From Comamonadaceae bacterium (lineage in GTDB: Bacteria > Pseudomonadota > Gammaproteobacteria > Burkholderiales > Burkholderiaceae_C): a stretch of DNA of 33,972 nt. Location of the stretch: NCBI GenBank assembly GCA_013297985.1, contig JAAFIY010000032.1, positions 1 through 33,972 of the forward strand, written 5' to 3'. Positions 9,876 to 31,962 of the stretch are shown piece after piece. The position numbers and the translations under genes are program-made. Positions within the stretch are counted from its first letter, which is position 1. Each line of letters begins with the position of its first letter. The notes under the pieces are model-generated. The model saw only the letters and a list, made by a program, of their open reading frames with translations, searched no databases and was not told the origin of the DNA.

Positions 9876-11411
9876 ATGAATGCCCCCCTGCCCTTTTCAG
9901 TCGCGCCGCCTGGGTCGGCCTTGCCCGCCTTGAGTTGGGTTAACCGATTTGCCAGCCTTGGCCCCGATTTCTATACCCGAGTGGCCCCTCGTGCGGTGCC
10001 TGCGCCCCATTGGGTGGGCCGCAATCTAGGGCTGGCGCACGATCTGGGCCTGGACGATGAATGGTGGGCCCACTACGACACCTTGCAGGCCTTGGCTGGC
10101 AACGCCACGCTGCCGGGTGTGCAGCCCCTGGCAAGCGTTTACAGCGGCCATCAGTTTGGCGTGTGGGCGGGTCAGTTAGGCGATGGACGTGCCTTGCTGT
10201 TGGGCGAACGCACCGATGCGGTTGGGCTGGGTTGGGAATGGCAGCTCAAGGGCAGCGGCCTCACGCCCTATTCGCGCATGGGCGACGGCCGCGCGGTGCT
10301 GCGGTCCAGCATCCGCGAATACCTGGCCAGCGAGGCCATGCATGGTCTGGGCATCCCCACCACCCGAGCGCTGGCAGTTGTCGGCACCCCCCTGACGGTG
10401 CAGCGCGAAACCGAAGAAACCGGCGCCGTCGTGACCCGTGTCGCGCGCAGTTTTGTGCGCTTTGGTCATTTCGAACACTTCGCCGCGCGCGAACAAACCG
10501 AACTGTTGCGCCGTCTGGCCGACTATGTGATCGAGCACTATTACCCGCAAGCAGCACACGCTGCCCCTCCCGGCGGCAACGCCTATGCGGGCCTGCTGCG
10601 GCTGGTAGCGCAGCGCTCGGCTGAGTTGGTGGCCCAGTGGCAGGCGGTGGGCTTTTGCCATGGCGTGCTCAACACCGACAACATGAGCATCCTGGGGCTG
10701 ACCTTGGACTACGGCCCCTTCCAGTTCATGGACGCGTTTGATCCGGCGCACATCTGCAACCACTCCGACACCCAAGGCCGCTACGCTTTTGCGCGCCAGC
10801 CCAGCGTGGTGCACTGGAACCTGTTTTGCCTGGGCCAAGCCTTGTTGCCTCTGATCGGCGAGCAAGAACATGCGCTGGCTGCCCTGGAGCCCTTCCGTGC
10901 GGACTACCCGGCGGCCTACATGCGCTTGATGCTCGCCAAGCTGGGGCTGGGCCGTGCCGAATTGGACGCCACCGCCGCACGCGAGCTGATTGACCCGCTG
11001 CTCAAGCTGATGGGGCAAGACAAGGTGGACTACACCGTCGCTTGGCGGCGTTTGTCCCACGCGGTGGCAAGCAGCACCCATCAGCCCGAAACGGCGGCCT
11101 TTGCGCCGGTGCGAGACTTGTTTATAGATCGCCCCGCGTTTGATACTTGGTTGCTATTGTTTTTGAAGCACCTTACGCACATCAATAGGGCGCAAGCGGC
11201 TGAAATCATGCTGAACGCCAACCCGGCAGTTGTGCTGCGCAACCACCTGGGTGAAGAGGCCATCCGTGCCGCGCAGCAAGGTGACTTCAGCGTCGTACAG
11301 GGCCTGCAAGATCTCTTGGCCCAACCCTTTGCCACCGCTGCAGACACCAGATCCGAAGCCGGTTTTGCGCCCGATTGGGCGTCTTCCATTTCTATTTCTT
11401 GCTCATCATGA
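9876..11411 (+). CDS. selO: SelO family protein adenylyltransferase (YdiU)
   Basis: A 511-residue pseudokinase-fold enzyme that transfers AMP from ATP to Ser, Thr or Tyr of protein targets; in E. coli the targets include redox proteins. Family blocks are YSGHQFGVWAGQLGDGRA (89-106), the lysine in QLKGSGLTPYSRMGDGRA (from 123), HGVLNTDNMS (262-271) and DYGPFQFMD (278-286). The last residues are SCSS, where animal SelO carries selenocysteine; here it is plain Cys. Residues 426-442 (11151-11201) coincide with a copy of the intergenic repeat seen elsewhere in the window, with low-GC and rare codons (TTG, CTA, AGG), while the sequence on both sides (RDLFIDRPAFDTW, NPAVVLRNHLGEEAI) is ordinary SelO. 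The stop overlaps the msrB start as ATGA. Confidence 0.95.
   Translation: MNAPLPFSVAPPGSALPALSWVNRFASLGPDFYTRVAPRAVPAPHWVGRNLGLAHDLGLDDEWWAHYDTLQALAGNATLPGVQPLASVYSGHQFGVWAGQLGDGRALLLGERTDAVGLGWEWQLKGSGLTPYSRMGDGRAVLRSSIREYLASEAMHGLGIPTTRALAVVGTPLTVQRETEETGAVVTRVARSFVRFGHFEHFAAREQTELLRRLADYVIEHYYPQAAHAAPPGGNAYAGLLRLVAQRSAELVAQWQAVGFCHGVLNTDNMSILGLTLDYGPFQFMDAFDPAHICNHSDTQGRYAFARQPSVVHWNLFCLGQALLPLIGEQEHALAALEPFRADYPAAYMRLMLAKLGLGRAELDATAARELIDPLLKLMGQDKVDYTVAWRRLSHAVASSTHQPETAAFAPVRDLFIDRPAFDTWLLLFLKHLTHINRAQAAEIMLNANPAVVLRNHLGEEAIRAAQQGDFSVVQGLQDLLAQPFATAADTRSEAGFAPDWASSISISCSS
11151..11201 (+). repeat. Repeat copy R3, in frame inside selO
   Basis: The blocks TGCTA (11152-11156), GAAGCACCTT (11165-11174) and GGGCGCA (11188-11194) have gaps of 8 and 13 bases. 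These are exactly the gaps in the intergenic copy at 25129-25181 read on the minus strand, and AGCGGCT follows. By eye about 33 of 45 aligned bases match that copy. It encodes LLLFLKHLTHINRAQAA of SelO. In this reading frame the intergenic form would have a TAG stop at the ATAGCT block; here the codon is AAG. The copy is diverged, so chance similarity is not fully excluded. Confidence 0.65.
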
Positions 11412-13720: not shown

Positions 13721-13778
13721 ATCCAAGGTCTATCCAAGGCAGTGAGTCTTTCGGGCTGATGCGCCCGTCAATTCTGCG

Positions 13779-13810
13779 AAAGCCGCTACGAATTATGTAG
13801 CGGCTTTTTT
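13779..13810 (+). terminator. Rho-independent terminator after the parvulin gene
   Basis: An 11-base perfect stem (AAAGCCGCTAC / GTAGCGGCTTT) encloses the seven-base loop GAATTAT and runs into TTTTTT. It lies 58 bases after the parvulin stop and 12 bases before the end of the convergent DUF1624 gene. On the minus strand the stem is followed by only three Ts, so it may also stop that transcript, less strongly. Confidence 0.93.
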
Positions 13811-20505: not shown

Positions 20506-21426
20506 ATGTCGCCCACACACCTCCCCATTCGCAAAGCCGTGTTCCCGGTGGCGGGCCTGGGCAGCCGCTTTTTGCCCGCCACCAAGGCCATCGCCAAAGA
20601 AATGCTGCCGGTGGTGGACAAACCCCTCATCCAATACGCGGTAGATGAAGCGGTGGCCGCAGGCATCACCGAGCTGATCTTTGTCACCGGCCGCACCAAG
20701 CGCAGCATTGAAGACCACTTTGACACCGCCTACGAGCTAGAAACCGAACTGGCCGCGCGCGGCAAGGCCGATCTGCTGGCCGCAGCCCGCGACGTGTTGC
20801 CCCCAGGCATCAGCTGCTGCTATGTGCGCCAGCCCCAAGCCCTGGGCCTGGGCCACGCGGTGCTGTGCGCCGCCAACATCGTGGGCGACGAGCCCTTCGC
20901 CGTGCTGCTGGCCGACGACCTGATCGATGCCCTGCCCGGCCAGCCCAACGCCTTGGCGCAAATGGTGGCGCACTACAACGCAAGTGCCGCCAGCGTGCTG
21001 GCCGTGCACGACGTGCCGCGCGAACACACCAAGCGCTATGGCATCGTGAGCGTGGGCGGATCGACTCATGCCTCACATAGCCCAGAAGCCCACCGCATCC
21101 AAGCCATCGTCGAAAAACCCAAGCCCGAACTGGCCCCCAGCACCCTGGGCGTGGTGGGCCGCTATGTGCTGCCCGCGCAAATCTTCGACGCCTTGCGCAC
21201 CACGCCCAAGGGCGCAGGCGGCGAGATCCAGCTAACCGACGGCATCGCCACACTGATCGCCCAAGGCCAGCCCTTTGACGCGCTGCGCTTTACCGGCCAG
21301 CACTTTGATTGCGGCAACAAGCTGGGGTATTTGCAGGCCACCATGGCGCTGGGTTTGCGCCATGCGGAGGTGGGGGAGGCGTTTGCTGAGCACTTGGCGG
21401 CAGTGCAGAAGTTGCAAGGCAAATAG
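20506..21426 (+). CDS. galU: UTP--glucose-1-phosphate uridylyltransferase
   Basis: A 306-residue GalU. Signature segments are [20 protein letters not shown] with the nucleotide-binding glycines near the N terminus, [39 protein letters not shown] and [13 protein letters not shown]. It makes UDP-glucose for cell-surface polysaccharides and sugar interconversion. ATG 20506 ([11 protein letters not shown]) gives the family's normal N terminus although no Shine-Dalgarno is visible; the frame is open 25 codons further upstream without conserved residues. It is divergent from the alkyl sulfatase gene and convergent with the ACAD gene, with repeat R1 in between. It appears monocistronic. Confidence 0.96.
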
Positions 21427-21432
21427 GGCTGT

Positions 21433-21475
21433 AGCGGCCTGTTTTTGGGCGCAGGTAGCTATCTCTTTTGTAGCA
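21433..21475 (-). repeat. Repeat copy R1, between galU and ACAD (shortened)
   Basis: Read on the minus strand: TGCTA (21471-21475), 8 bases, ATAGCTACCT (21453-21462), 13 bases, GGCCGCT (21433-21439). It lacks about ten bases, including the GGGCGCA block present in the copies at 25129-25181 and 30908-30959, but keeps ACAGGCCGCTA exactly as in the former. It fills most of the 68-base space between the two convergent genes. No strong terminator is seen there. Confidence 0.75.
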
Positions 21476-25098: not shown

Positions 25099-25128
25099 CG
25101 CACGCGGATCGCCCCGTCTTTAAACCCT

Positions 25129-25181
25129 AGCGGCCTGTTGCGCCCTAAAAAAGGGCGTAAGCAGCTATCGAAATAATAGCA
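25129..25181 (-). repeat. Repeat copy R2, between thiolase and FadB-type genes
   Basis: Read on the minus strand: TGCTA (25177-25181), 8 bases, ATAGCTGCTT (25159-25168), 13 bases, GGGCGCA (25139-25145), 3 bases, GGCCGCT (25129-25135). The middle contains the hairpin CGCCCT-AAAAA-AGGGCG (25141-25157). It takes up about half of the gap between the two genes and ends 19 bases before the ATG at 25201, which has no clear Shine-Dalgarno. I take this as the reference copy of the family. Confidence 0.85.
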
Positions 25182-27359: not shown

Positions 27360-27878
27360 ATGCCTGGGCCGCGCGTTGGTTCAGCAAGGGGCCGGGCATC
27401 GGCGGTGCAGCTGCGAAACCCTCGCGCGGGCGACTTCGGCTGGGTGGTGCAAGCCCACGGCGAGGTGTACGGCCGCGAATACGGCTGGAACGCCGAGTTT
27501 GAAGCCCTGGTGGCTGAACTCGTCGCCCGCTTCATTCGCCGCTTTGACCCGGCTTGGGAGCGCTGCTGGATTGCGGAACTCAACGGCCAGCGCGTAGGTG
27601 CCGTGTTTGTGGTGCGCAAAAGCGCCACGGTGGCGCAACTGCGCATGCTGGTGGTGACGCCTGAGGCGCGTGGCCTGGGCCTGGGCGCGCGGCTCACTGA
27701 CGAATGCCTGGCCTTCGCCCGCGCCAAAGGCTACCGCCGCATGGTGCTGTGGACTAACAGCCTGTTGGTGGCCGCGCGCCACATCTACCAAAGCCGAGGC
27801 TTTGACCTCACCGGCAGCGAAGCCCACCACAGCTATGGCGCTGACTTGGTGGGTGAAACCTGGGCGCTGAAGCTGTAG
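27360..27878 (+). CDS. GNAT family N-acetyltransferase
   Basis: A 172-residue GNAT protein. The acetyl-CoA loop is in LRMLVVTPEARGLGLGARLTDECL, with strands CWIAELNGQRVGAVFVVR before and ARHIYQSRGFDLTG after. It resembles the C-terminal acetyltransferase half of MarR-GNAT fusion proteins (GWVVQAHGEVYGREYGWNAEFEALVA), but no MarR domain precedes it. The substrate is unknown. ATG 27360 is two bases after the FadB-type stop, so it is probably cotranscribed; conservation appears to begin at about residue 15 (VQLRNPRAGD), so a later start is possible. Confidence 0.88.
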   Translation: MPGPRVGSARGRASAVQLRNPRAGDFGWVVQAHGEVYGREYGWNAEFEALVAELVARFIRRFDPAWERCWIAELNGQRVGAVFVVRKSATVAQLRMLVVTPEARGLGLGARLTDECLAFARAKGYRRMVLWTNSLLVAARHIYQSRGFDLTGSEAHHSYGADLVGETWALKL

Positions 27879-30601: not shown

Positions 30602-30964
30602 TCAGCGCGGGTTTTCAAAAAACACGATGTTGCTGTAGTCGCTGATTTCAAAGTACACCCGCTTTTCGCCCGGGTCGACCTGCATGTTCAGGTTCTCATC
30701 GAGCACGCCATAGCCATAGCGGTAGTTGCGCGGCTTGCCGTCGGTGGTGCCAAGCGCGGTGCTGAGTTTGTCCACCTTCAAAAAACGGCGCACCACCTTG
30801 TCGCCCGCGTACACCTCGAGCACGCCGTTGGTGCCGGTCCAGTTTTGGATGTCGCGCTGGATTTGGTTTTGTTGCTCTTGGGTGCAGGCGCTGATCGCAA
30901 GCAAAAAAGCGGCCACTGCGCCCATTTTGATTGCCGAAGCAGCTATTGATTTTGTAGCATTCAT
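30602..30964 (-). CDS. Small predicted lipoprotein, function unknown
   Basis: A 120-residue protein I do not recognise as a named family. MNATKSIAASAIKMGAVAA followed by FLLAISAC gives a signal peptide with lipobox ISAC and lipidated Cys27. The mature part starts with a Gln-rich stretch (TQEQQNQIQRDIQNW) and continues as a small, probably beta-rich domain (VLEVYAGDKVVRRFLKVDKL, RVYFEISDYSNIVFFENPR). AGGGAGG before ATG 30964 is a strong ribosome site, and the ATG overlaps the rlmB stop (ATGA). Residues 3-19 of the signal peptide are encoded by repeat copy R4, so this export signal appears to derive from an intergenic element. Confidence 0.82.
   Translation of the reverse strand: MNATKSIAASAIKMGAVAAFLLAISACTQEQQNQIQRDIQNWTGTNGVLEVYAGDKVVRRFLKVDKLSTALGTTDGKPRNYRYGYGVLDENLNMQVDPGEKRVYFEISDYSNIVFFENPR
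30908..30959 (-). repeat. Repeat copy R4, encodes the lipoprotein signal peptide
   Basis: Read on the minus strand: TGCTA (30955-30959), 8 bases, ATAGCTGCTT (30937-30946, exact), 13 bases, GGGCGCA (30917-30923, exact), 2 bases, GGCCGCT (30908-30914, exact). Block order and spacing match the intergenic copy at 25129-25181. It starts two bases inside the lipoprotein start codon region and ends exactly at codon 19, coding for A3 to A19. The centre has lost the hairpin pairing of the reference copy. Confidence 0.85.
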
Positions 30965-31833
30965 GATGCGGCGGCCTCCCTTTGCCGCAAGACGTCGTAC
31001 AGGCACACACCGGCGGCCACCGACACATTCAGGCTCTCTACCGCGCCGCGCATGGGGATGCGGATCATGGTGTCACAGGTCTTGCGGGTCAGTTGCCGCA
31101 GGCCTTGGCCTTCAGCCCCCAGCACTAGCGCCAGCGGGCCGCGCAGGTCGGTGGTGTGCAGTTCACCTTCCGCATCGTCCGACGTGCCCACGCACTGAAT
31201 TTGTCGCTCTTTCAACTCGTTCAGGGTACGTGCCAAGTTGGTCACCATGAAGTAGGGCACCGTCTCGGCCGCGCCGCTGGCCACCTTGGCCACGGTGGCG
31301 TTCACACCCACGGCGTGGTCTTTGGGCGCAATGATGGCGTGCGCCCCGGCGCCGTCGGCCACGCGCAGGCAGGCGCCCAGGTTGTGCGGGTCGGTGACGC
31401 CGTCTAGCACCAATAGCAGCGGCATCACGCCGCGTTCTTGCAATTCGTCCAGCAGGTCGTCCAGCGAATGGCGCTGTGGCAAGGGCTGCACCTTGGCCAC
31501 CACACCCTGGTGGCCGGCGGTGCCGCACAGGCGCTGCAGGCGGTCGCTTTCGGCATCAATCAAGCGGCAGCCCGCTTCTTTGGCGCGATCAACAAACTGG
31601 CGCATGCGGGCGTCGCGGCGGCTGGGGTCTACATAGACCTCCAGCACGCTTTCGGGTGCGGTTTTGATGCGCACGCCCACGGCGTGAAAGCCAAAGAGCA
31701 GTCGGGTGGCACCGGCAGTGGCACCGGAACTAGCGCCAGCACCAGGGGCAGCGTGGTCTTCAGCGGAAGCCCCTCCCACGCTGGGCCCAGAGCGAGGGCC
31801 AGAGCGGGGGCGGGCGGGTTTGGGAGCGGTCAT
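30961..31833 (-). CDS. rlmB: 23S rRNA (guanosine-2'-O)-methyltransferase RlmB
   Basis: A 290-residue SpoU/TrmH-type methyltransferase. A low-complexity Pro/Ala/Gly N-terminal stretch (about 1-40) precedes the substrate-binding domain starting LLFGFHAVGVRIKTAPESV. The knotted SPOUT domain has LDGVTDPHNLGACLRVAD, LVLGAEGQGLRQLTRK and MRGAVESLNVSVAAGVCLYD, the three family motifs. It should methylate G2251 of 23S rRNA. ATG 31833 is taken; the frame is open 37 codons further upstream without family similarity, and no strong Shine-Dalgarno is seen at either. The 129 bases before it (to the ABC ATPase stop) hold nothing I can name. Confidence 0.93.
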   Translation of the reverse strand: MTAPKPARPRSGPRSGPSVGGASAEDHAAPGAGASSGATAGATRLLFGFHAVGVRIKTAPESVLEVYVDPSRRDARMRQFVDRAKEAGCRLIDAESDRLQRLCGTAGHQGVVAKVQPLPQRHSLDDLLDELQERGVMPLLLVLDGVTDPHNLGACLRVADGAGAHAIIAPKDHAVGVNATVAKVASGAAETVPYFMVTNLARTLNELKERQIQCVGTSDDAEGELHTTDLRGPLALVLGAEGQGLRQLTRKTCDTMIRIPMRGAVESLNVSVAAGVCLYDVLRQREAAAS

Positions 31834-31962
31834 GCGCGGCCTAGCGGTAGGTGGCGCGCCCGCTGTAGTCGGTGAGCTAGGCGCGAAGCAGCCAAGCATC
31901 GCACAGGCGGCACCTTGGGCCCACCCAACGCCCCCCGCTGGCACGCGGGCCCGACGGCAGGC

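Follow-up and report, generated by a model that had tools for sequence, protein, structure and literature searches.

Being short, tolerant and poorly conserved, signal peptides rarely show where their replacements come from. Delihas (2007, PMC2759123) reports that in Yersinia the RU-2/YPAL repeat supplies part of the signal peptide predicted for YPO1552, that the signal sequences of similar proteins in other genera bear no relation to RU-2, and that such repeats are possible building blocks. RU-2 is 168 bp long, RUs are described as forming long, stable hairpins, and one main signal-peptide case is given (PMC2759123; review PMC2229807). With this Yersinia precedent, the idea of a repeat as part of a signal peptide is already in print. 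Here we describe a repeat of about 60 bp in Comamonadaceae, starting from a copy, R4, at the 5′ end of a predicted lipoprotein gene beside rlmB. The gene lies in a contig of 33,972 nucleotides (JAAFIY010000032.1, assembly GCA_013297985.1, Comamonadaceae bacterium), which in its full length is called the window. We consider it likely that this repeat encodes an Ala/Ile-rich predicted signal-peptide body in one forward and one reverse frame, and that it has repeatedly replaced the leaders of already exported proteins, the window lipoprotein included. With somewhat less assurance, we favor the broader view that a selfish repeat, spread family-wide, serves as a mobile signal-peptide cassette on either strand and that many exported proteins of Comamonadaceae, unrelated to each other, have had their leaders overwritten by it time after time, with export signals evolving with the genome's repeat variant instead of with their genes.

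Like RU-2 in YPO1552, the Comamonadaceae repeat forms part of a predicted signal peptide, and similar proteins elsewhere have non-repeat signals. Unlike RU-2 as described, it is about 60 bp long, and of five copies folded, four show no stable structure. Unlike the Yersinia case, it involves several genes and genera and both strands, and its leaders often carry their own genome's variant. Our literature search, with its partial coverage of print, did not meet a repeat acting on the scale of a whole family, in both orientations, recurrently at the same genes or in the own-genome variant.

R4 occupies most of the lipoprotein leader. Read on the minus strand from 30964 to 30884, the leader with its Cys codon is ATG AAT GCT ACA AAA TCA ATA GCT GCT TCG GCA ATC AAA ATG GGC GCA GTG GCC GCT TTT TTG CTT GCG ATC AGC GCC TGC; its ATG overlaps the rlmB stop TGA as ATGA (30964-30961). 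A basic start, a hydrophobic core and a lipobox are all present, Cys27 being preceded by I-S-A, and the 120-residue product is a predicted lipoprotein, signal-peptide status being judged throughout from sequence and hydrophobicity. A Pfam search with this protein returned nothing up to E 1, and we take its neighbor to be rlmB, an assignment by reading that goes beyond the Pfam label SpoU_methylase. The preliminary description of this DNA, made by a reader who saw only the letters, had held that R4 keeps ATAGCTGCTT and GGGCGCA exactly and at the reference spacing, that its peptide helps form the lipoprotein signal, and that its frame differs from that of the copy in selO. All three statements stand: the spacing is the commonest one, R4 is read in frame 0, and the selO copy lies in forward frame 1 (selO start 9876, element start 11153). 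Its placement of R4 at codons 3 to 19 is slightly too narrow, since the conserved columns span about codons 2 to 22. The hydrophobic peak of the leader comprises residues 16-27, 7 of these 12 being repeat-coded. That the insertion supplied the start region, as was also proposed, fits some orthologues (L035, L123), where the ATG lies inside the repeat; it does not fit R4 itself, where the start codon is shared with the rlmB stop and is not among the conserved columns.

The repeat is numerous and well defined. In the draft genome of the window (G000, 3.76 Mb), the pattern ATAGCTGCTT-gap-GGGCGC has 55 matches and its reversed control 0, and 50 of the 55 copies span 29 bases over the pattern. Conservation above 0.5 bit extends over the columns -14 to +48 around ATAG, with one stray column at -29, giving about 63 conserved columns. 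R4 belongs to this dispersed Comamonadaceae repeat (at least 55 copies by pattern) by its conserved core and spacing and by the many copies per genome: it scores 55.1 bits against a profile of 32 own-genome entries built without it, and the best score in the window read backwards is -4.7. The triplet just before GGGCGC is most often TAG (19 of the 50 own-genome copies of standard length); R4 has ATG there, as in 2 of the 50. Over 60 bases, the repeat contains 45-52% G+C in six genomes. A copy at L028 (G000:C113) lies just upstream of, and open in frame with, a gene that looks like enolase.

The potential of the repeat to encode hydrophobic stretches is nearly confined to two frames. For 184 copies, a translation was called hydrophobic if a 12-residue window reached a Kyte-Doolittle value of 1.6 or more. 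Forward frame 0 is open in 121 copies and reverse frame 1 in 124, and these two frames give open hydrophobic translations in 19 and 20 copies, respectively (39 of 368 together). The remaining four frames give 1 of 736, and shuffled copies 1 to 5 percent. The repeat translates as xATKxIAAxA forward and as AAIxLIAS in reverse, and all 11 leader cases described below are read in forward 0 or reverse 1.

Whether the repeat made an exported protein or merely heads one can be judged from its relatives. The lipoprotein family is large, with 7,995 of 7,999 scored candidates being relatives. Among the best 120 of these 7,995 rows (the query and 119 homologues), all keep Cys-x-QEQQ, the lipobox is strict in 110, and Met or Gln stands at -2 in ten; the leaders of these homologues are hydrophobic by eye, and one row, P0100, has only six residues before the Cys. 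We also collected 110 orthologue loci, nearly all from Comamonadaceae: the 30 best from 250 family genomes (the gene occurs in 45) and the best 80 of 551 loci from named genomes, with some genomes in both sets. In the 109 loci scored (L049 was left out), the leader DNA scores as repeat in 27, at 5.7 to 59.9 bits, and as non-repeat in 82, at -0.3 bits or less. Repeat leaders occur in loci titled Rhodoferax, Curvibacter and Brachymonas and in none titled Limnohabitans or Hydrogenophaga. Three loci, two of them from one genome, fall in a grey zone of -1.5 to -0.3 bits, among them a Hydrogenophaga bin (L066, also L032) at -1.5. Three loci titled Rickettsia typhi, Bordetella parapertussis and Akkermansia muciniphila (L118, L122, L128) carry lipoproteins that group with Comamonadaceae and are probably misnamed metagenome bins.

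These comparisons bear on two rival explanations. One is a chance likeness between Ala-rich signal peptides and an Ala-coding repeat, both being rich in Ala codons. We give this practically no credence: the scores fall into two groups, the 854 control segments from the same loci peak at -4.4 bits and never reach the 27 repeat loci, and the genome-specific bases TATGCCGGC (G206) and TACCTGGGC (G034) recur in leaders. The other, proposed in the preliminary description, is that the repeat made a secreted protein from sequence that had been cytoplasmic or silent. Most of the leader is indeed encoded by R4, yet this reading is very improbable, because Cys-x-QEQQ persists in all 120 rows as well as in the orthologue loci without a repeat leader. 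The comparison of orthologues that the same description proposed thus went against it: non-repeat orthologues with a lipoprotein leader are the majority. Since all 120 rows keep the motif, the repeat created no exported protein here. Export of the lipoprotein is older than the repeat, which is the present leader of a protein exported anyway.

The repeat heads other genes as well (Table 1). Our sample comprised 159 repeat entries (99 + 60), taken from seven genomes by repeat motifs and not by start codons; two or more of the 99 are chance core matches (in L172 and L215). In 11 of the 159, the repeat forms the N-terminus of a coding-like open reading frame (ORF) that has either a hydrophobic leader or a first membrane helix. 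These 11 were hand-picked by a start near the copy, an ORF of 110 or more codons, in-frame G+C content at third codon positions and a hydrophobicity of 2.0 or more. An ORF at L250 that satisfied this rule was excluded as antisense to a longer coding-like frame. In eight of the 11 leaders, the repeat encodes 11 or all 12 residues of the most hydrophobic 12-residue stretch. Separately, 399 family genomes were searched for repeat cores with an ATG placed two codons ahead of them, giving 40 matches in 24 genomes; the 30 that were fetched contain four clear leaders (M16 twice, MlaA and ABC_trans_aux). Pfam matched nine of ten repeat-headed proteins, L221 being the exception, to Catalase, Peptidase_M16_C, Cytochrom_C, SoxA-TsdA_cyt-c, BPD_transp_1, TctC, PBP_like_2, ABC_trans_aux and MlaA; the names SoxX and catalase-family are our reading of the sequences together with Pfam. 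The preliminary description had named the absence of a related start elsewhere in the genome as an outcome that would refute it; such a start exists, MNATFFIAAYADF in the M16 peptidase gene at L029. Its idea of a ready-made route to export wherever the element lands survives in part: the repeat heads other exported proteins in the same and other genomes, more widely than claimed.

Two of these genes show the same pattern as the lipoprotein. For each, we took the 30 best matches to a repeat-bearing query, a choice that is no random sample. SoxX was found in 141 of 250 genomes, and 24 of its 30 loci could be scored. The repeat is present in 6, in reverse orientation and in four genera (G034, G206, G112, G063, G030 and G238), and 18 are without it. 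The profiles used include the copies of G034 and G206, whereas the other four positives are independent of them. Anchors in this scoring are approximate, and one non-repeat locus, L336 (-5.3), scores just above its control maximum (-6.6). The G063 SoxX copy carries, by eye, ATATTCCATTGGGCT, close to two other copies of G063. For the M16 peptidase, present in 225 of 250 genomes, 26 of the 30 loci were scored: 22 have a repeat leader and 4 have none. In two M16 loci, L379 and L390, the peptide is similar though the DNA does not score as repeat, which suggests, without proof, that the repeat-like leader peptide may be under selection there.

Leaders also tend to carry the edition of the repeat found in their own genome. 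These editions are distinct, with TACCTGGGC in G034, TATGCCGGC in G206, TTGTGCA in G255 and AGGGCGC in the window genome. When 15 copies per genome were drawn 200 times and each lipoprotein leader copy was assigned to the genome whose set fitted it best, its own genome won in 199 of 200 draws for G000, 200 for G034, 200 for G206 and 198 for G255. For other repeat-headed genes, the own genome fitted best in 8 of 9 copies tested (a set without L221 and L226). A single old insertion drifting alone would not follow its genome's edition; the match therefore points to new arrivals or to conversion of copies.

Conversion leads to a third rival, in which one old ancestral insertion made the lipoprotein leader, which was then kept and homogenized by gene conversion (concerted evolution), with losses elsewhere. 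The own-variant match would follow from such conversion, and near relatives share details (L073 with L083, L084 with L087). In a tree of mature lipoprotein plus RlmB (96 distinct rows, 25 with a repeat leader), 20 of the 25 repeat rows lie in one region together with 6 other rows. However, the rows from G000, G034, G014, Brachymonas and Curvibacter sp. CHRR-16 fall outside that region. Both states occur within genus g113, where G206 has a repeat leader and G112 (L047, -24.1 bits) does not, and the SoxX (reverse orientation) and M16 patterns would need several old insertions anyway. We therefore regard a single insertion as unlikely. The repeat-leader state requires 8 changes on the tree; taken together with its clustering, this number indicates that inheritance and repeated change are both present.

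Repeated replacement could proceed as follows. A repeat copy would land at, or be copied to, the 5′ end of an exported-protein gene, by new insertion or by copying between repeats. In two of its six frames, the copy could act as a leader, and it may take over when the product is exported anyway. Such a takeover by an in-frame copy is possible because little is required of a signal peptide beyond a basic start, a hydrophobic core and a cleavage site. The old leader would then decay. The M16 peptidase gene of the window genome may represent an intermediate: at L029, a repeat-coded N-terminal extension precedes an ordinary hydrophobic leader, the second in that protein. All of this could come about by neutral replacement, with no need for a benefit.

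Several observations weigh against repeated replacement and temper our confidence in it. First, rows with the repeat-leader state cluster on the tree (none of 500 shuffles gave so low a value), so that much of it must be inherited, and the starred branches force only 2 changes at least. Second, the own-variant match has exceptions. The lipoprotein leaders of G216 (17 of 200 draws) and G250 (51 of 200), two genomes with similar editions, do not fit their own genome best, nor does the copy at L215; moreover, the copy sets were collected with different motifs, so their profiles are not fully comparable. Third, the leader frame contains a stop in 25 of the 50 own-genome 29-base copies, the hydrophobic peak is repeat-coded for 5 of 12 residues in L235 and for 4 of 12 in L177, and in L029 it lies wholly after the repeat. 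Fourth, the repeat also stands at the N-termini of proteins that do not look exported (L214, L141); export is thus no condition for its presence there. Finally, neither an empty site nor a target duplication was seen, although no dedicated search was made.

Leader replacement by the repeat would have practical consequences. Since the donor of the leader DNA can be named and its copies counted, leader turnover becomes testable; replacements may be datable by repeat variant, and repeat-leader genes predictable. For annotation, N-terminal similarity between unrelated exported proteins of Comamonadaceae can be repeat DNA and not homology.

Table 1. Features of the window and genes headed by the repeat in this and other genomes.
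Feature	Location	Strand	Score, evidence or remark
Lipoprotein gene, 120 aa	30602..30964	(-)	no Pfam family
R4 repeat copy	30898..30960; 56-base core 30903-30958	(-)	forward frame 0, about codons 2-22 of lipoprotein
Predicted lipoprotein leader MNATKSIAASAIKMGAVAAFLLAISA + Cys27 (30886-30884)	30884..30964	(-)	sequence, lipobox score, hydrophobicity
rlmB (SpoU rRNA methylase)	30961..31944	(-)	Pfam SpoU_methylase domains
GGGAGG, probable ribosome-binding site of lipoprotein, within rlmB	30975..30980	(-)	sequence; role inferred
Repeat copy between listed genes	25125..25180	(-)	62.0 bits
Repeat copy near ends of two genes	21419..21474	(-)	55.3 bits
Weaker repeat copy	13746..13801	(-)	36.9 bits
Repeat copy inside selO (Pfam SelO), frame other than that of R4	11153..11208	(+)	30.8 bits
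Catalase-family protein (L006)	window genome		
M16 peptidase (L029)	window genome, G000:C114, repeat at 27614		
SoxX (L177)	G206		
SoxX-like + SoxA (L196)	G034:C13:53700-55900		each with its own copy, reverse orientation, one 2.2-kb stretch
ABC permease (L205)	G034		
TctC receptor (L215)	G216		
PBP-like protein (L218)	G216		
Protein without Pfam match (L221)	G216		counterpart L226 in G254
Lipoprotein resembling L162 (L235)	G216		65-residue piece without Pfam match

Besides the copies in Table 1, the window holds two weak repeat-like stretches, at 1668-1723 (15.3 bits, in a coding region) and at 418-473 (4.2 bits), which are perhaps decayed copies. An Rfam scan of the window gave 0 matches at the gathering score. 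R4 forms no stable hairpin on folding (z -0.13); of five copies folded, four including R4 gave z values of -0.13 to -0.82, and one, from G206, gave -2.35.

Other described repeats resemble this one in part. The Beta-proteobacterial repeat element (BRE) occurs in 1 to 29 copies in seven listed strains of Comamonadaceae, mostly between genes, with some copies within coding sequences, and in Bordetella it is 75-91 bp long, contains 69.0% G+C and is often in tandem (PMC3110155). Our repeat is likewise short and betaproteobacterial, yet shorter, with a lower G+C content and 55 or more dispersed copies. Compared by description only, BRE is probably another repeat, being longer, GC-richer and often in tandem. 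Rickettsia palindromic elements are short selfish repeats of 105-146 bp with stem-loops, inserted in frame into protein genes; the case given, in guanylate kinase, is not a replacement leader (Ogata 2000, as cited in PMC2229807). The Comamonadaceae repeat is also inserted in frame in protein genes, and it differs in its smaller number of conserved columns and in lacking a stable fold in most copies tested. The Rhodoferax ferrireducens genome paper, in the text available, mentions only CRISPR repeats (PMC2755013).

REP/REPIN sequences, which occur with RAYT transposases, are short and numerous and have lineage-specific variants. The Comamonadaceae repeat shares these traits and, unlike REP/REPIN, shows no hairpin in R4. 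Each of four genomes examined has one PF01797 (Y1_Tnp) gene. A core-motif scan of its flanks found two full repeat copies in G034 and none in G000; the core matches in G206 (two) and G216 (one) do not, by eye, continue as repeat. These flanks give no convincing RAYT link: full copies lie by Y1_Tnp only in G034, where a AATTGGGGTCAGA-like motif lies nearer. At that locus (L292, 950-2700), short inverted motifs of the AATTGGGGTCAGA-like kind flank the Y1 transposase gene, and the two copies of the studied repeat lie further out.
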